Part shown: piece after piece, positions 24,401 to 48,724 of the stretch
Numbering within the stretch: the stretch's first letter is position 1
Layout: the number at the start of each line of letters is the position of its first letter
Source of the DNA: Ectocarpus siliculosus
Taxonomy: Eukaryota > Sar > Phaeophyceae > Ectocarpales > Ectocarpaceae
Assembly (NCBI GenBank): GCA_000310025.1
Contig: FN649747.1
Coordinates: 50,587-99,751, forward strand
Direction of reading: 5' to 3'
Length of the DNA: 49,165 bases
Notes under the pieces: generated by a model
What the model was told of the DNA's origin: nothing
Seen by the model: the letters and a program-made list of their open reading frames with translations, nothing else
The model's database searches: none
Translations under genes and position numbers: made by a program

Positions 24401-27400
24401 TTTTCTGTGATGGTATATTTTCTACACAACAAAGTACCGGCTGTTTCCTTCGGTGTTTTGTCACTCTGTTATCTGCGTCAGTTTTCGTTATTTTTCTTCG
24501 AAGTCGAGGCCTGAGTCATGCGGCCTAGGCCCGTACTGCTGTCGAGCGCAAAGAAATGTCCAAAAAATGGCATGGTTGGAAGCCCTTCTTGGTAACCCTC
24601 ATGTGGATTTACCTTCGGTGGAATAGAGTGGAAACACACGGCGCCAGACAACAGGCGGGCCGGCCGAGCGTCCCCAACCCTTCTTCCACCCATCCGTCAA
24701 GGACTCGGCGAAACGATGCCGCTTGCCGTACACTATCTTGAATTATTCAAACTGCCCCCCCCGGTGTTTGCCATCGGGGTTGGGTTTTCGTCGCTTGGCA
24801 ACGACGTTGTAAAACAAGCCAATCCACTTCGTGAGCTCGGCAACCACTTCACCGCTGTTTTTTTTACCTTGTTTTTTTTTCTTGGCGGTAACCATAATGG
24901 TGGTCGAGTAGATCATGTTGTGCGGGGTGGAGAACCCTCACTCCGCGCAAGGCGGATGATCGCACCACGTTGTGTTCAAATGGTCAAGCATCCTCGAGGC
25001 AGTTACACAGTGCTTGCAACTGTCTCTGGAAGTGAAAGCACCAGAAAATAAATTAAGTCATACGTAGCTGTCATCCGTACGCAAGGAAGTAGGCACAAGA
25101 TGCCGAACACCCTTAGCAGGATGCAGCTCACCCTTCATGCGACTCGCCGAATACCTCACGGCGCTTCGCGCTTGGTGATGTGAGAGCCTGGTCCGGTGAG
25201 AACCCGGCGTGCTCCGTCCCGGCTTTGTAGGGATGCGAGGTCAATGGTCTAACGACTACGGCATGCACGACTATGAGTACCCTGCCCCCCCCCCTCCCCC
25301 GCAAACCCCTTCCGTGATTCTTGCCACCGTTTTCCTCCATCGCTGGAATCTCTCGGCTGCTCGATGATAGGTTTCTGTGCCGACTCCTTTCCTCTTTCTC
25401 TCTCTCTCACGCCCCCCCCCCCTCCCGTCTTTCTCTTCTGGCTGCACCGGGGGCCGGGCCATCGTGCTTCAGATCCTGGCCCACCCGGCCGTCAAGGCCG
25501 TGGTTTCGCACTGTGGCATGGGCGCCGCCCAGGAGGCGTTGCTTTTCGGCAAGCCGGTCCTCTGCCTGCCGATGCTCGCCGACCAGGAGGTATGCATTAC
25601 GCCGACGAACCCAATGCTTTTTGTGCTACTCCCGGGGGGGGGAGCAGGAGAAGGGTACCTTGGCGGGGGCGGCGGAAGTGCGACAGATGCGGCGCCACGG
25701 CTTCAGGAGCCTAAGCTGCGCCTTTCTCGCCGTTTGTTTGTTCCTGACGCGTGTGGGCTTGAGTTGCTAGTGCTGCCGGGTTGTCACTCTCCCCCCGACT
25801 ACCGCACAGCCGTGGGGCTGTTCCATACCATGAGCTGTGTATTTTTCTGCCATAGGCGTGCCATGGTACCCCAAGATTACCCCTTGCCGTACTCTGGCCG
25901 ACATTCACGCATGTCCCCCCCGGCGCGTCGCGGGCCTTCTTCGCTGTTATTTTCTGGGGGAGCAGGACGTCGCTAGGAGGGTTATCGATGCCGGCGCCGG
26001 GCTCGGGCTGTCCGGCCTCCCCACCGGGAACATCAGCTCCGGAGACATCCGGGAGGCGGCCGCGGACATCGTCTCAGACCCCTCCTATGGCGGAAGTGCC
26101 GCTGTACTGTCTGGCGTGTTGAGGTGAGAGGGAGAAGATAAGGTGGTTAGTGGTTGGTGGTTGGATCATCCGCGGTTACAACGAACGGTCACTTGCAGTG
26201 GAGGTGTCGCATCGAGCTTGGGGGGGGGGGGGGGGGTCAATCAAGGGTTTTTCATTGACCCTTGGTTGGAGAGGTTGGTTAAGGGTCAACGGAACTGGCT
26301 ACGTACCTTTAACCGCCCACCGCGGCATGGACGTATAGCTGGACTGCATGGATACGTTTTCCGCGGACTTTTAAAAGTTAGTCGTGTAGCTTCATGCGAG
26401 ACTGGCAGCAAACATAGCTCAGCTGGCTGGACTAACCATCTACGCGACTTTGCGGGTGGGGGTTGGGTCCTCACGCACGCCGCTGTGTTCTCGTTGGCGG
26501 CACGGAATGACAGGCGAGCCGGCGGCACTCTGCGAGCGGCGGATGTTGTCGAGGGGACTCTACAGCTAGGCGGGAGTTCCTACTTGCATCCCCCAGAGCT
26601 CCGAGGACCGTGGCACGAGGTAATATGTAGTTCTTCGATTTGCGTTGTTGTTGTTGTTGTTGTTGTTGTTTCTGGCGCAGATTGGTGATCCTTGCGGTAA
26701 TCTTTGTCTCATTTTGCATTGTTTGTTTTCTTTTTCTTAGCAGTTGATCCGTGCGGTACGTAGTAGCATTTGTCTCGTTTTCGCCGACTGACATTCGGCG
26801 GGTTGGACAAGATATTACCCCGGCTAGGCCGATTTTCAAAGCTCGGTGTAGTCTGCTGATTTATTCTGCCGCGAGACCAGTGATGGTGCCGAAAATGACA
26901 GCAAAGGGGCTCGATTTGAATCCACTCGTCTATAAGCCTGCGGTGTCGGACGGACTCCACCCAATGTAGACCCCACCCCGTCTGCGGAATCAGTATTTCA
27001 CGGTCTGCGGGGACCCGCCACACATCTCACATCTAATACGTTTCTACATGCGAAGGGCCAACGCGATTGTACGAGCAAGTACGGCCATGCATACATGATG
27101 CTCGGGATTGACCAATCCCTCCCGTTTGCTCCCACCTTCCACAAACCGAACGCCAGGCCTCTGGCACCGATGCGTACGTGTTCCTCTTGGCCGGCCTGGT
27201 CCTGATGGCAGTCCTTGGGTACGCCTTGTTTGCGGCGCTCTGCTACGGCGCGCTTCTCTTGCTGCGCTTCTCGGCGAGGATGGCGGTGCGCTGCGTCCGC
27301 ATGCTGTTCGGCCTCCCGCGGCGATTCCCTCGTGTCGGCAGCGGCGGCGGCACCGTGGCGGGGGGGCGGCAGATGGGATGGTGGTGCGAGTGGTGGCGGC

Positions 27401-27975: not shown

Positions 27976-28988
27976 TCGGGGGGTGAAAGAAGGCGGTGGA
28001 AGCATCATAATACGCAGGGAGGCTTAGGGCAGGCGCCGGCGGGCGGTTGCTCTTTTAGAGGAGATTCCGCTCGTTTTTTCGCCGGCCGAACGAATTGTAG
28101 ATTGGGGCGAGTGGCAGATCGACCGTCAAACTGCCGGGTCTTTTTTACCAACGCGGCAGCTGCAGGAAAGACAAAGAGGGGTTCGTACGGTATGCTGCCG
28201 GAAGGGATAGGATAGTTGGTGATGTAGGCGCATGCAAGCTTTTGTGTCCTCGGAAGACCTCACCACGCAAGTCGGCGACGGCTTTCTTTGCTTACAATAC
28301 CCGGAGTGTCCCGGTTCGATTCTTTCCGCCTTCTCGTGCACGAGCCGCCCGATGTTCGTCCACCAAGAGAGGCCACTATAGACGCGTACACATAGGCCTC
28401 CGTGATACCTTTCCTGCACCTTGCTTTTGTCCTTGGTGCAGAAGCTTGTGTTTGGTCGTGCCGAAATATTGTGGAAGGATCGAACAAACTCCAGCAGTAT
28501 AGAGCAGGAACGAGGGTCTTAAATAGCTGAATTCGAAATATCACAGCGCGTTGTGTATGCGCACGAGGAAGAACTCTTTTCTTTTTTCGTCAGAACTAGA
28601 GGTCGATCTCAATTTTGAACAACAATTTATCGTCTTGTCTCGGTATTTGAGAGGGTCGCAATCAAACAATCCCGACACAATTTTTGCGTGCAACGAGAAT
28701 GCAGAACGAACGAGGGCAATCTGTACCACACCGACCGCAGGTGTGTACGTGTATGTCACGCGGAGAGCGTACCCACGCCGTCTCGAGTTTAGTTGGCGTC
28801 ATGCATGTATTCCCGAGCTCAACGTCTTGCGTCCATCCGGGGTCCCTTCCCGCTTCCGCTCTCAAGCCTAAAAGCAACACGCACAGAAAGCAAAAGCAGG
28901 CTTAGGGCTCGCAACGTTGGCTTGCTTTACAATACCACACTTCACGGCATCTGCGACAACTACGACTACGCCACATCTACGACATCTA
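27976..28988. other. Convergent 3' intergenic region
   Basis: About 1 kb between the stops of the glycosyltransferase (+) and the MORN protein (-). It should hold both 3'UTRs. I see no gene and no recognisable terminator or polyadenylation signal that I would defend. Confidence 0.5.
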
Positions 28989-31900: not shown

Positions 31901-34900
31901 CGTCTGCCGAAAAGGAAAGCATGGGAATGGTGCTCGGTAAATTGGCTATACGAATAGGCCGGCATCGAGGTAAAATAGCCGCTGCCCGTTCACGAGAACG
32001 TCTACCGTAATTCACCGTCGAGGAAGCAGACTCTACGATCTCGCCAGTAGATGGCCTTTCGCTTGTTGTTGTCCTCCTCAGAAATGATGGTTCCCATGCC
32101 TTGCACCATGTCCTAACATGAAAGCGCCACAAAGAGGAGATGAGAAAATGTATATTTTTTAGTAGGACAGACTACTCCTGTATAACAGCCGAAGCTATGT
32201 ACTCTTCTGTCTGCGCAATGATACGGTGTTCGGCAAACGCCAAGTGAATAACATCAGGGCTCGTTGCGGCTATGTTCGCGCACCTCACGCTGGACTTACC
32301 GTCATCACCCCCACGTAGTCGATCAAAGAGAAGCAAGAGATAACGTCGACGAGACCAGGTGACCTCGCGGTTGTACTATTGTAGATCGTTGCTGGTCTCT
32401 TGGATTGTGTGCGAAATTACAGCTCGTAGTAGACGGTGACAGATGGGTGGGTATGGTGGTTCGATAGCTTGGTCCTGCCTCGGGCGAATGGAAGCTCGGT
32501 GAGAGTGAGAGAGAGACCCTCACTGGCAGCAGAAGAAATATGTTCGTTGGTGAGGCCCAAAAAACACAACGCCGAAACTCAAGCTACGGCATCAGCGCCC
32601 AAGGCATACTTGTTTTGCTTTCTTCGCCCCTCACCTTCCAGAACTGGCCCGCCCAGATATTCCCGTTGTCCATGAGCAAGCGGCCTTCGCCGTGCATGGC
32701 GCCGTCGAAGAACTGTCCCTCGTAGATGATCTCGCCATGAGCGCGATATTCTCCTGAAAGACGACAACATCGTTCAAAGAGTGCCTTCACCACGAGCTGC
32801 CCCGGCCGTTATTTAGTGGGGCCGTCGAGGCTCCCAAGACTTGTCGAGTGATGAAGTCCTCGGCTGCCCCTCGAAAAAGGGCAGCGGACATACGTCACAT
32901 GTTGTTCAGCTAGAACACACACACACGAACGTCGTCACATATAGACGGTTTGATTTGCTGAAGCACTACTGATGATGATGACCTACCGTGGCCGTGCGGT
33001 ACCCAGGCTTCTCCCCGGCGCTTCGATTCCCCGAAGTAAAGAATGCCAGTCTCCTTGCGCTTTCCCGTGATATCACGCTTCCAGAAACGCATGGTGTTCT
33101 CTTCGATATGCCTGTCTTGGAAACGACAGCAGTAACATCCACTTACATGAGTGAAATATTGTGAATCGGATAGAACACGTGTGCCGTGAATGTCATTCAC
33201 TGGCTTGTTCCATTGGGTGTCAAGTTTCGTAAAATCCCCATCATCCGTTGTTCCGCCATGAGCTATATATTCAGCTTCAAGATGACTCGCGGAAGGCTTC
33301 GCCAACGAGTGACTACTTGCTGATACGTTCTCCATTTGTCTCGGTGGGCAGAGTATCGGTTACCTTATAAGTTCCTTTTCTTTCTTCTCCTGCTCGATGC
33401 GTTTTTCAATGGCGGCCTGCTCCAACAAGACGAAAATCATAGGTAAAGCAGAGGAGAGGTACGCCAGCCGTTGCCGTTGGGTAAGTTGGGCAGCCCACTA
33501 GTCGCGTCGTGGCATTCTCAAGAGAGAGGGAGCAGGAGAACGCAACGAAAACAATTAGACCATGTCCACGTCCTCCAGGGCTAGCACAACCAGAATTAAC
33601 GGTATGTAGGAATTCAACGGGAACATGCCTGTGTCCCTTGTTTCTTTAGTTCTTGTTTCGTCCCATCAACTCTGGGTGACAGGCTATACACACTCGCGGT
33701 AAGAGTCTCTAAGAACAGTATGAGTTTCACTGGCTTCTAAAGCGCCCGGCTTCAATGACATACTGACGCATGGAAAATGCCACCCTTCGCCTAAAGGTGC
33801 ACACATGATGGACCCGAGTTGAGTGCGTGTCGACATTGTATTCACTCTGTTTTTTCAATACGCTCTACCGCGGCACTGAGCACTTGAGCACACGGTAGGA
33901 TAGAATCAATGCATCAGCGACAGAAATTTAACTGCGATGAAAAAGCCCTGTCTGTTGTGTCACACATGCTGCGAAAGCGAGTATCCAGAGACGACACATC
34001 CAGCGAGCGAGTGAATATGGCTATTGGATTTTAATGGGTAGGTGCTGCGTTGTTGCGAACTTTGAACTCACTTGACGCTTGCGCTCGAGTTCGCGCAATC
34101 TCGCAGCTTCTTTCCTGCGCGCATCCTCTTCCAGCTTCTTCAAGCTTATCTGTAGACGAGCATTCAGCATGCAGCAGAGAGAAGTAGTGGTGGAAGCGCC
34201 GAGAGGTAATCCCACGCGCTCACTTTTCGCGCAATTGGTTGAACATTGGGCATTCAAACAAATTCAGGGATCGGAGACACAAATATTTCTTTATCCAATA
34301 GAAAACATGCATGCAATCAGAGACCCCTGTTCGCGATGCTGCAGTACCATAAAGGCAAACGAAGGGGATACATTGAAGGTCTTTTATAGTGAGTCGGGGA
34401 GAACAACTGCTGGATACGGGGCTAGGTAGCCTGTACGCCGATTTATCAGTGAATGCCAGGTGTTGATCTGGGTGGTACGTGGAGGGAGGACAGTCGGATG
34501 CTCTCGTGAGTTCAGGTCTTCCTGATGTTTCTCAGCACCCTTGTAACTCGAGGAAGTACTGGGGGCAATAGACGCGGCAAAATGTCAACACACGGACACT
34601 TTTTGCAGCTGGGAAATAGTTTGCCCGGTGGGGTCGGGACATTTTTGCCGAGATGGACCGAGAGGTACACCGCCAGTGTTTGCACTTCTGAATTCCAGAC
34701 AACAACCAAACAGCAGCAGGTGCATCATTTTTGGTCAACAAGGTCTTGATGTTCGTTTGTAATTTCCTCGAGTAGATGATGCTATCCGGTTGTGAATGAA
34801 CTGTGAGTTAATTGAACATCGTTGAGCAGAACAAACACACAACCCACCTCTTTGAGCTTCTCGATTGTGATTTGCTTCTCGGCTAGGAAGCGCTTCGCGC

Positions 34901-34985
34901 GCTCGGCTTCTGTGAGCTCCTCCTCGGGCTCGTTATCCGCTTGCTCGAGGAGCTCATTGTACAGTTTGTCCAAGGCCGAGTTCAT
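28989..34985 (-). CDS. MORN-repeat and coiled-coil protein, complete
   Basis: Eleven exons, high to low: 34985-34848, 34149-34072, 33416-33364, 33111-32987, 32753-32635, 32112-32016, 31541-31370, 30618-30518, 30032-29932, 29635-29534 and 29123-28989. Total 1,221 nt, 406 residues; every GT-AG junction keeps phase. Residues 1-90 are charged coiled coil (MNSALDKLYNELLEQ...). About 110-200 hold three MORN-like repeats: YFGESKRRGEAW...HGHGE, IYEGQFFDGAMHGEGRLLMD and, split across an intron, IWAGQFWK + DMVQGMGTII. Residues 204-261 (GCRLQLLSDEF...GRYRLRLDNGTEKLVRLDN) look like a small SH3/Tudor-like barrel. 295-406 are Lys/Glu/Arg-rich coiled coil. MORN repeats often bind membranes or serve as scaffolds, for example in flagellar and cytoskeletal proteins; the exact role is unknown. 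Its start lies 282 bp from that of the divergent 14-3-3-like gene. An alternative end is a stop at about 32008-32010 if the donor at 32015 is not used. Confidence 0.8.
31050..31345 (+). mobile_element. Candidate tRNA-derived SINE in a MORN-gene intron
   Basis: On the plus strand, TTAGTGCACAGTTGGTATC (31056-31074) resembles a tRNA A box/D arm and GGGTTTGAATCCCGG (31106-31120) a B box/T arm, at roughly tRNA spacing. The acceptor ends do not pair, so it is not a functional tRNA. A second A-box-like stretch TGGCCTAGTGGATAGCGC lies at 31171-31188. The 3' part carries the dispersed motif (GACCACGGGTTGGAG ... GTGAGCGCTGATTTGAA) that also occurs at 16736 and 45375. Target-site duplications were not found by eye. 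Confidence 0.5.
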
Positions 34986-35267
34986 GGTCTAGGCAAGCAG
35001 GTGGTGGGCAGCAAAGGGTTGCTGGAAACAACACGCCCGGGGCTGGGGCTCCTCTGCGGCACAGAGTGCAGAGTTGCACCGCGTCGAAGGGGATCCGCAA
35101 CTGCGATTGGTCTTTGTGACGGTTCGTCACGGGACTGTCAAAAATAGTTCTCTGGATTTAATGTATGCACGTATGCATATGAGCAGCTGAGAGTAGAGCG
35201 CCCGGGAGGGCTGGGACACTGGGACTACAGTAGATAGCTGATACACTGGTGTCAAAATTCGAGCCAA
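34986..35267. promoter_or_regulatory. Shared divergent promoter region
   Basis: Only 282 bp separate the start codons of the MORN gene (-) and the 14-3-3-like gene (+), so both 5'UTRs and any promoter elements lie here. I see no TATA box that I would defend. No convincing upstream exon of the plus-strand gene is visible here, and there is an in-frame stop at 35235. Confidence 0.55.
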
Positions 35268-38200
35268 ATGACTTCCGTCAACCACCACGAAGGAAGGAAC
35301 GTCAGCCGGGGCCTGTGCGATGGCATCGCGAGGCTGGCCGCGAAACGGCTGGCTTTCGACACGAAAATGCGTCAACGAGGTCCCACGGCGAATGCATGCA
35401 TGTCCGTCGAAGGAAGGGTAACTTATTTGAAGCTCCGAGGCGACCAGCTACTTCACCTGGCAGAAATAGCCCGGCACAACGGCGAGGTGTCAATGCCCGA
35501 GTGCGAGGGACTAGCGGCAGATGCGCTGGAGTCCTACGTCGCTGCCCAGGACGAAGCGTCTTCAAACGCGATTGACTCGTCCGATGTTGTCAACAGCAGG
35601 ACAAACACCGACAACGGTCGCAGCCACCACAGCAGCAGCGGGAGCAGCAGTGCTCTTCCAGAGCTCCACCCTTTGCGAATAGAGCTGGCCCTGAGAATAT
35701 CTTCCGTCCTCTTACACCTGCTCGATCGGCCGATCGAGGCATGGGGAGCAGCATACCCGACCTACGTCGCGGCGGCAGAACGCCCGACTCACCTCGGCCC
35801 TCGAGGACTTGCCGTCACGCAGGTGCTTCGAGACCACTTGGCATGCATCGGCGTCCGGGGCGGGGGCAGCGGGTATCAACAAGAAGGAAGCAGGGCATGC
35901 AAGAACAGCAAAGGAGAAGAGCCTACCCACGTGCAAGATCTAAATGGAGGGTTCACCGGCGGAGACGAGTGGGGTTTCCTTCGAATGGCCCCCGGGTTTG
36001 ATGAAGGCTCAGGAGCGGTGGTCGGGATCGGGTCCACGGCGAGTGACAAGTTGCGGGCTCTGGCGCAAATGAAGCAGGCTCGATCGTGCCTAGATGGCAT
36101 GACGGCAGCGAAGCGAGTGCTCCTGGGCACCATGGAGCATGCGAATGACGTGAAGTCAGCACTCAAGCAGGCAAGAGTAGGACCTACCTGGGGACGATTA
36201 GTTGCTCGTCTTGCTGGGCAGGCCTTTCGTCTGTTCTTTGGCCCCTTTGGTATCTGGATGTGGGCATATGTGCCCTGCAACAGGGAGAAAAACACTAGCT
36301 GCGACCCCGTGAAGTGGAGTATCGACCAAAGAGGGTCTCAGGTGTTTGTATTTGAACCCTCTGGGTCTCATTGTGTATCGCGTGCCATAATTATGAAAGA
36401 ATGCCGGATCTTGAACGACTTCTTTGGACTTGCCTACCGTAATAATCCTGGCTGAGCGGTAGCAAAACCAGAGACCCACACCGCATACCGGTCTTCTATG
36501 CAAAAGCGATGCACCTTGCACCGACACTTGATGTTCATGTGCAGATACTGTTCTTCAGCGACTTCTTTGGCGCTTGCCTACGGTGATTATCCCGGCTGAG
36601 CGGTAGCAAAACCAGACACCCACACCGCATACCGATCTTCTATGTAAAAGCGATGCACCTTGCACTGACACTTGATGCTCGTGTGCAGATATTCGACGTG
36701 TACTGCCGAAAACACGCCCAGCCGGCCACGAAATGCTCGGACGATGGCCACGGTACCACCGGTGAGCACGTGTGGCTGCAAGGACGGAAAGTGACGCCGC
36801 GTGCTTATCTTCGGCCGGGGCCGTTCCTCTCGTGGCCGGGTTTCGAGTCCGTGTGCCACGACTTCAGCATCACTACCGCCGCAACCGTCTCTCCAGCGGC
36901 TGACCGCCCCCACCCTCCTGCTCAATACAATCACCACGACCGCAGCATCACTGAGCACCACGCTCAATTTAGGAGTACCTCGCCAGACCACCATCGACAT
37001 CGATCGCCAAGAACAAATCCTGCAGCTCCTGCTGCTACGGTGATGCCACGGCCAAGCGCTCCCCCTCCAAGGATGCTGTTAGGGGACACCGCTACTGCTG
37101 TTGGCGGTCTGTTGAGCCGGTTGCAGGCCCGGATTGCGTTCGTGAGCGCTTGCACGCACGAGTCAGTGGTCGCCTCGTTTCCTGACCCTGATGGTACAAG
37201 CGGAAGCAATAACGTTGTTGTAAATGGCGCCGGTGGCGGCGGCGGTGGGCGGGGATGCAGAACTGGGGGCGCTGGAATCGCGGGCACGGAACCAGGTCGT
37301 GTAGAGGAAGGCGACGGGATACCCTCCACCGACGGAGACACAGCATATTGGCGTGTGAGTTTTGTGGTGTCCGAGGCCTATCAGAACGTTTGGTGTTTAC
37401 ACCACCGTATGTGGAGCCGATCGAGTCGTCAACATTGATATACTGCATCCGCCTTTCTTGGCCCTGTCAGAAGGGGCGAAGGAGTAGAACTGCTCATTCG
37501 TTTGAAAGCAATCGCTTGTGTTCCACGAGCACAGTTAGGTATTCAACGCCGCTTGATTGTTGTTCCTGAGTCGCCCTGCATACGCACCACAACCGCAAAC
37601 GGCAACCGGCCATGTTCCATCCACGGCCTGACGAGTGCAAACACGGGGGAGGTGGTGTCGTCAAAGTTTCACTCGAACAAGTTCGAATACAAAAAATAAA
37701 ATAGCAGTATTTCATCGGTGACGCATTTTTCTTGCAGAGGATGAATGAAACTCCGAGAAGTGTTGCACAGAAAACCTCTGTGTTATCTTGGCTGTTACCC
37801 ACGACCTCGTGATGTCATCTCCATTTCATTGCTTCCCCGTCAGGCTGTTGAGCAGGTGATCCTTTCAGGCGCTGCCCCAGACGATAAGGAAGCCGCGCCG
37901 GGCCTAAACTTCCGCCAGTTCGTCGACGGGCTCGCGCGATGTGGCCTCATCGGGTTTTCCAAAAACGGCACCGGATTCAAGCAGTGCGTGTCCGCTGCTG
38001 AGCGCATGCAAGCGGTCTTCATGGCGCGGATGAGACTGCTCGACAGCGAACACGTAGAGGCAACGCTGCTGCAGCAGCAGCAGCAGCAGCAGCCAGCGGA
38101 GCACCTGACGGCCGGAGCAGCGGCAGCAGGAGTAGCGGGAAAACGCGAGATCACCGTCGCCGGCGGCAGCGGCCCCGGTGCGGGCGGAACTAGCAAGGAA

Positions 38201-38383
38201 GGCGAGCGTGTCCACGTCGCGGGCGTCGAGAGAGCGAGCAGAACGGTGGGCAGCAAGACAGGGCGTGGCAAGACCAACAGCCGGAGAGCACCGCCGAGGG
38301 AAGGCACAAGAAGGGTGACCGCGGCGGCGGCGGCGGCGGTGGCTGATCCAACGCCTGCCACGACCCTTGCGCCTGTGCTTTAG
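35268..38383 (+). CDS. Diverged 14-3-3-like domain protein with long C-terminal extension
   Basis: Three exons, all phase 0: 35268-36170, 36689-37354 and 37844-38383; 702 residues. Residues about 15-194 follow the 14-3-3 fold: GLCDGIARL, GRVTYLKLRGDQLLHLAEIA, HPLRIELALRISSVLLHLL and VTQVLRDHLACI align with helices C to I, with a Ser-rich insertion at about 96-130. The first helices are missing. Pocket residues R127, Y128, N173 and N224 (human zeta numbering) are L62, H63, R143 and H190 here, so canonical phosphopeptide binding is unlikely. The C-terminal half (IFDVYCRKH, LSWPGFESVCHDF, LNFRQFVDGLARCG) looks helical and faintly EF-hand-like; I do not recognise it. The end is Gln/Ala/Gly-rich. 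Intron 1 starts with GC (CAG/GCAAGA) rather than GT. A strong in-frame stop upstream supports the ATG at 35268, unless an unseen exon supplies the N-terminus. Confidence 0.7.
36416..36701 (+). repeat. 143-bp tandem duplication including a splice acceptor
   Basis: Units 36416-36558 and 36559-36701 share CGACTTCTTTGG, GGCTGAGCGGTAGCAAAACC, CACACCGCATACCG and the acceptor GTGCAGATA. The second copy's acceptor begins exon 2 of the 14-3-3-like gene (36689). The first copy's acceptor is at about 36545. Confidence 0.9.

Positions 38384-41699: not shown

Positions 41700-48724
<7,025 letters not shown>

Follow-up and report, generated by a model that had tools for sequence, protein, structure and literature searches.

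The question raised by this locus of the brown alga Ectocarpus siliculosus is whether an open reading frame with the appearance of a 14-3-3 protein, bereft of its first helices and of most residues that would contact phosphate, forms the beginning of a larger gene, and what the product of such a gene might be. The 14-3-3 proteins are highly conserved stand-alone dimers, and few regulators in complex cells are as well conserved. The window, as the whole analysed stretch of 49,165 nucleotides is called here, lies on contig 22 of a 189-Mb genome assembly with unread stretches, and it is this assembly that the own-genome searches reported below cover. The interpretation favoured here, to which we give about an even chance, is of a three-exon gene encoding approximately 702 residues, the first 200 of which constitute a partial and highly diverged 14-3-3 domain comprised of helices D to I. 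The features concerned are as follows, with positions numbered within the window.

34782-34985, reverse strand: putative start of the coding sequence of a divergent neighbouring gene, coiled-coil-like, with a presumed start codon at 34985 (reading of the sequence)
35268-36170, forward strand: proposed exon 1, 301 codons, carrying the domain, then a linker and a long helix predicted with low confidence (open reading frame, splice signals)
35268-35867, forward strand: 14-3-3-like domain spanning residues 1-200 and helices D to I (profile, PDB, alignment and model)
36171-36688, forward strand: proposed intron 1, GC-AG (or GT-AG from 36177)
36689-37354, forward strand: proposed exon 2, 222 codons, unrecognised, with Pro/Gly/His-rich linkers
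37355-37843, forward strand: proposed intron 2, gtgagt...gtcag
37844-38383, forward strand: proposed exon 3, 179 codons and the stop codon TAG

The open reading frame

An ORF of 301 codons, beginning with an ATG, occupies positions 35268-36170 of the forward strand, precisely where an earlier, sequence-only reading of this DNA had placed it. It is enclosed by a stop-free frame of 405 codons (35238-36455), the longest in the 49-kb window. First-order Markov resamplings of the window (n = 60) gave a longest ORF of 247 codons on average and 324 at most, and none of 1000 local resamplings of the 405-codon stretch stayed open.

Sequence similarity to 14-3-3 proteins

The sequence-only reading had claimed a helix-by-helix similarity to 14-3-3 proteins and had proposed a profile search as a check. 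The Pfam 14-3-3 profile (PF00244) does match residues 45-100 of exon 1 with E=0.0027, although at 17.8 bits the domain does not reach the curated cut-off of 33.2 bits. Comparison of residues 1-301 with PDB sequences by phmmer gave a best E-value of 1.4e-4 and 122 sequences at E<=1, the best 60 of these 122 all being 14-3-3 proteins by name or synonym; the best row consists of two collinear pieces (residues 46-71 and 126-202), and its significance is a joint one because each piece is weak alone (i-E 10 and 0.2). A 14-3-3 model of six sequences, two of them assembled from the own genome, scored 20.6 bits over residues 11-200 against a maximum of 7.3 bits in 2000 shuffles. Likewise, a model of the C-terminal half of 14-3-3 was applied to the 1467 ORFs of at least 20 residues found in the six frames of the window, and its sole match was the exon 1 ORF (E=3.7e-5, the next being 3.6). 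Since the Pfam, PDB, shuffle and window-ORF statistics agree, the observed likeness is real and above chance; as judged by its sequence, the exon 1 ORF is homologous to 14-3-3 and a descendant of that family.

The sequence statistics establish collinearity with 14-3-3 for helices E, F, G and I, and helix D (residues 7-37) is placed by the hand alignment and the seeded structural model described below. Motifs shared between the domain and canonical 14-3-3 include H-P-x-R-x-x-L-A-L, Y-x-K-x-x-G-D and L-R-D-x-L. Identity to 14-3-3 zeta is about 29% (34 of 117 residues in hand-set ungapped blocks), and 25 of the 73 family-invariant residues, defined as those unchanged across five canonical 14-3-3 sequences, are kept, mostly in helices E, G and I. 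A Ser/Asn-rich insertion of about 30 residues separates helices F and G, and the coding sequence of the domain is uninterrupted by introns.

Predicted fold

Unseeded AlphaFold prediction of exon 1 gave a model of unusable quality (pLDDT 41, pTM 0.27), although its helices lie, by eye, where 14-3-3 would have them. With the canonical 14-3-3 fragments L043 (viral contig) and L044 (MAG, with the row for its N-terminal piece left out) supplied as the alignment, residues 1-200 were predicted with a mean pLDDT of 76 and a pTM of 0.70. The best 50 Foldseek rows of the seeded model are all 14-3-3 structures or 14-3-3 complexes (best E 7e-5), with TM-scores by query of about 0.52-0.58 and rmsd of 5-15, and Giardia chain 4zq0 is found among the Foldseek rows of this model. 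In the VIA superposition its residues 3-196 fall on positions 75-230 of a 14-3-3 chain (148 aligned, rmsd 2.8, Z 16.5), on a scale where helical models with no clear match can reach a Z of about 14; a Cryptosporidium 14-3-3 chain, 3efz_C, is among the VIA rows with a Z of 15.2. The seeded model is not independent of the 14-3-3 hypothesis because 14-3-3 rows were supplied to it. In the Foldseek comparison put forward by the sequence-only reading, the seeded model retrieves 14-3-3 and the unseeded one gives nothing significant, with 14-3-3c at rank 1 and E=5.

Gene structure and the C-terminal half

Joined in phase 0, the three exons would encode 702 residues, and under this model the chain does continue for about 500 residues beyond the domain, as had been claimed. 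Alternatively, a GT donor may be used in place of the GC donor, which would extend exon 1 to 36176; both ends are in phase 0. The GC content is 0.60, 0.62 and 0.66 in exons 1, 2 and 3, as compared to 0.51 and 0.49 in the two introns. A tandem duplication of 144 bp, present as two copies at 36409-36691, lies nearly wholly within intron 1 and copies the 3' splice acceptor; use of the first acceptor copy would lead to an early stop.

Codon usage was scored with a training set of 22 exon matches from the own genome, comprised of 18 kinase matches and four from the 14-3-3 gene of locus C16. The kinase matches represent 18 of 25 loci, the seven whose matches hold a stop having been left out, and in leave-one-out scoring the training exons range from -0.18 to 0.86, three of them lying below zero. 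Exon 3 scores 0.11 and, by synonymous choice alone, 0.12, each the best of its six frames. The score of exon 1, -0.01, is weak but again the best of six, and its synonymous choice alone gives -0.05 against -0.04 in an antisense frame. Exon 2 scores -0.27, third of six frames behind two at -0.20 and -0.22, and by synonymous choice alone (-0.19) it is the lowest of the six. Frame, composition and splice signals favour a fusion, and the gene model is plausible; the codon scores are weak, those of exon 2 oppose the fusion, and exon 2 is the weakest part of the gene model.

These same weaknesses are what a pair of neighbouring genes would draw upon, namely a short half-14-3-3 from exon 1 and a second, independent gene from about 36.65 kb onward. 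An ATG stands in the frame of exon 2 upstream of the proposed acceptor, the first donor is either non-canonical (GC) or weak, and the coding score of exon 2 is poor. Nevertheless, exon 1 read beyond its donor becomes intron-like (GC 0.50, codon score -0.40), the stretch preceding exon 2 is the 144-bp tandem duplicate and has an intron-like composition, both exon 1 donors are in phase 0 with exon 2, and a helix predicted at residues 258-300 of exon 1, in a low-confidence model, runs up to the junction of the two exons. Taken together, we regard two genes as unlikely.

In the proposed three-exon gene, the first 76 residues of exon 3 are of ordinary composition and are followed by a Gln/Ala/Gly-rich tail. 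The C-terminal half had been described as unrecognised, and this description holds in the searches made here: the joined exons 2 and 3 match no Pfam family at E<=10, and there is no credible match among PDB sequences, where the best E-value is 0.55 (a hydrogenase) and further searches returned a single row at E 1.2 for exon 3 and none for exon 2. Searches of viral contigs with exon 1 and with residues 1-74 of exon 2 found no relative. In the own genome these two queries, and likewise the opening 76 residues of exon 3, each recovered the gene itself only, apart from one further row at E=0.4 in the search with exon 1.

One candidate identity for the C-terminal half was suggested by eye, the p25-alpha/TPPP family (PF05517), an EF-hand-like ciliary module. 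It was rejected at the level of sequence, as no Pfam family appears at E<=10, the PDB sequences gave nothing, and a model of two TPPP sequences gave no reportable domain in the real C-terminal half, while some shuffles reached up to 7.6 bits. Seven exon matches to p25-alpha at E<=1, from one gene or an array, are present in the own genome (C25:1835557-1845766, reverse strand), and inspection of the own-genome p25-alpha matches was of no help in identifying the C-terminal half.

The absent N-terminal helices

Helices A-C, which in 14-3-3 proteins bear K49, R56 and half of the dimer interface, are absent from the chain. Of the nine-helix bundle the seeded model represents only the part beginning at about residue 75 of 14-3-3. 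That the first helices are missing, as previously claimed, is borne out within the window: an in-frame stop lies directly upstream of the exon 1 ORF, the presumed start codon of the opposite-strand neighbour is 282 bp from the methionine codon at 35268, and a model of the N-terminal half of 14-3-3 finds nothing significant among the 1467 window ORFs (best 4.6 bits, E=3.2). The same model scores 98.7 bits on the C16 14-3-3 of the own genome, which is among its source sequences. Owing to the absence of helices A-C, the usual dimer, in which helices A/B pair with C/D, is not to be expected.

A 38-codon ORF at 28406-28519 on the forward strand has a non-significant match to 14-3-3 helix C (3.9 bits, E=5.1) that is probably due to chance.

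Were there undetected 5' exons, perhaps beyond the window, that supply helices A-C, the gene would instead encode a full-length divergent 14-3-3 followed by the C-terminal half. The seeded model begins at about an exon boundary of the C16 gene, a short first exon diverged to this degree could evade a profile, and the 38-codon ORF offers an N-half match, though a non-significant one. The upstream stop and the 282 bp that separate exon 1 from the presumed start of the opposite-strand gene stand against such exons, as does the best N-half score in the window, and we hold this arrangement to be improbable.

The phosphopeptide pocket

In canonical 14-3-3 proteins, phosphate is bound by K49, R56, R127 and Y128 (14-3-3 numbering). 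On a hand-set alignment, the pocket residues replaced are R127 (by L62), Y128 (H63), N173 (R143), E180 (H150), N224 (H190) and W228 (I194), and those kept, which the sequence-only reading passed over, are K120, E131 and L172. The sequence-only reading, in which R127, Y128, N173 and N224 were said to have become L, H, R and H, was therefore right on this alignment. It was also correct that most phosphate-contact residues are lost, as K49 and R56 are absent from the chain and R127 and Y128 are replaced by Leu and His.

Its wording of an erased pocket, which suggests a specific event, is not supported. Pocket invariants are kept at 3 of 14 positions and other invariants at 22 of 59, a difference that is not significant by Fisher's test (P=0.35). 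A targeted erasure is not supported on this ground, and the loss of the pocket is indistinguishable from general divergence. The domain falls short of the profile cut-off and lacks both helices A-C and the phosphate-binding residues, and for these reasons it is not considered a member of the 14-3-3 family in function.

Such losses might also be expected of a decaying pseudogene, a 14-3-3 remnant whose frame remains open by chance in GC-rich DNA. The weak codon scores are compatible with decay, as are the missing N-terminus and pocket, a pocket loss indistinguishable from general divergence, and the lack of a paralogue in the own genome for the parts searched. In opposition to this, the 405 open codons were unmatched in the 60 resamplings of the window and in the 1000 local ones, and the likeness to 14-3-3 is still recognisable, with a third or so of the family-invariant residues kept and most of these in helices E, G and I. 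At the present identity to 14-3-3 zeta, a copy evolving free of constraint should presumably have gained stops by now. Decay is consequently judged quite improbable, and the gene is probably real and bears a partial, divergent 14-3-3 domain. Finally, a chance or convergent likeness of some other helical bundle is highly improbable, for although the matched pieces are singly weak and the unseeded model has no significant 14-3-3 fold match, the order and spacing of the motifs agree with 14-3-3, the best 60 of the 122 PDB rows are all 14-3-3 and none of the 2000 shuffles comes near.

Canonical 14-3-3 genes of the genome and a possible origin

Two canonical 14-3-3 loci, C16 and C14, are present in the own genome. 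The C16 gene has exons from start codon to stop, and the C14 gene is visible from helix E onward. Of the 13,504 bases examined at C14, 10,934 read N, and whether this gene has an N-terminal half cannot be told because the upstream side is almost wholly N. Both genes have their coding sequence broken up within the part that matches helices D-I, from which introns are presumed there, and the C16 break is close to where the match of the seeded model begins. The C16 exon boundary and the missing D-I introns would fit either an ancient processed (retro) copy truncated at its 5' end or an old loss of introns. By such a history, a 14-3-3 coding copy lacking the first exons would have become joined to unrelated downstream exons.

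The last intron of the C14 gene (L006 342-793) features a 117-bp unit repeated 3.9 times, in which the splice acceptor and the first part of the LLRDN exon are apparently contained. With the repeat in intron 1 of the 14-3-3-like gene, C14 would be a second case in this genome of a tandem duplication that copies a splice acceptor.

A putative function and comparison with known systems

In the absence of K49, R56, R127 and Y128, phosphate would presumably not be held in the usual way, and a chain that lacks helices A and B should be unable to dimerise as 14-3-3 proteins normally do. What is left of the bundle could then bind partners independently of phosphorylation and hold the C-terminal part in position, as a structural element or scaffold. 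Tentatively, and with rather less than even confidence, we envisage a "pseudo-14-3-3" restricted to helices D-I, so named by comparison to the pseudokinases, that has neither the usual dimer nor the usual phosphate binding and acts as a phospho-independent module of a multidomain protein; it possibly arose from a 5'-truncated processed copy that was captured upstream of older exons, beside a divergent promoter. If the gene is expressed, the 14-3-3 fold has probably been turned to a different function. Should this be true, the helical bundle would be separable from the reading of phosphorylated residues and the locus would present a natural test of fold versus binding residues; should the gene model fail, an old remnant of little interest would be left.

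The domain resembles canonical 14-3-3 proteins (PF00244) in its collinear helices and differs from them in lacking helices A-C, in the insertion between helices F and G, in the absence of introns from the domain and in the long additional C-terminal half. A canonical 14-3-3 is a stand-alone chain of about 250 residues, as compared to the 702 residues predicted by the three-exon model. SMG5, SMG6 and SMG7 are large multidomain proteins that contain a 14-3-3-like domain and bind phospho-UPF1; they share with the proposed product of the present gene a 14-3-3-like domain within a larger chain.

Divergent 14-3-3 proteins with a disturbed pocket are known from a protist, Cryptosporidium parvum. Cp14a is described as a classical dimer whose RRY triad is disoriented, so that it may be incapable of phosphopeptide binding, and Cp14b as a degenerate dimer in which the cleft of one subunit is occluded and helices A and B are there merged into one (PMC3154893). 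The gene described here is like both in being a divergent 14-3-3 with a disturbed pocket, but for neither Cp14a nor Cp14b does the abstract mention the loss of the N-terminal third or fusion to an extra half (PMC3154893). The single 14-3-3 isoform of Giardia, likewise a protist 14-3-3 of unusual behaviour, is reported to be modified and to form domain-swapped oligomers, yet it binds targets (PMC3962474). The C-terminal domain of the mitochondrial Mdm38/LETM1 is described as a 14-3-3-like fold of nine helices for which ribosome binding has been proposed (PMC6358941), and by this description it provides a precedent for a 14-3-3-like fold put to another purpose inside a larger protein. Among the open-access titles and abstract openings listed, no description of a fused partial 14-3-3 of the present layout was found.

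Neighbouring genes

The 282-bp upstream region is common to the 14-3-3-like gene and its divergently oriented neighbour. This neighbour apparently combines the coiled-coil-like start and a set of MORN-repeat exons at about 32000-33110 on the reverse strand (PF02493, E=4.6e-7) in one gene. Elsewhere in the window, an exon at 25371-25973 on the forward strand matches the UDP-glucuronosyl/glucosyltransferases (PF00201, E=2.5e-6), and exons of a kinesin motor domain (PF00225, E=7.9e-18 and 3e-14) are found at 46827-48373 on the reverse strand.
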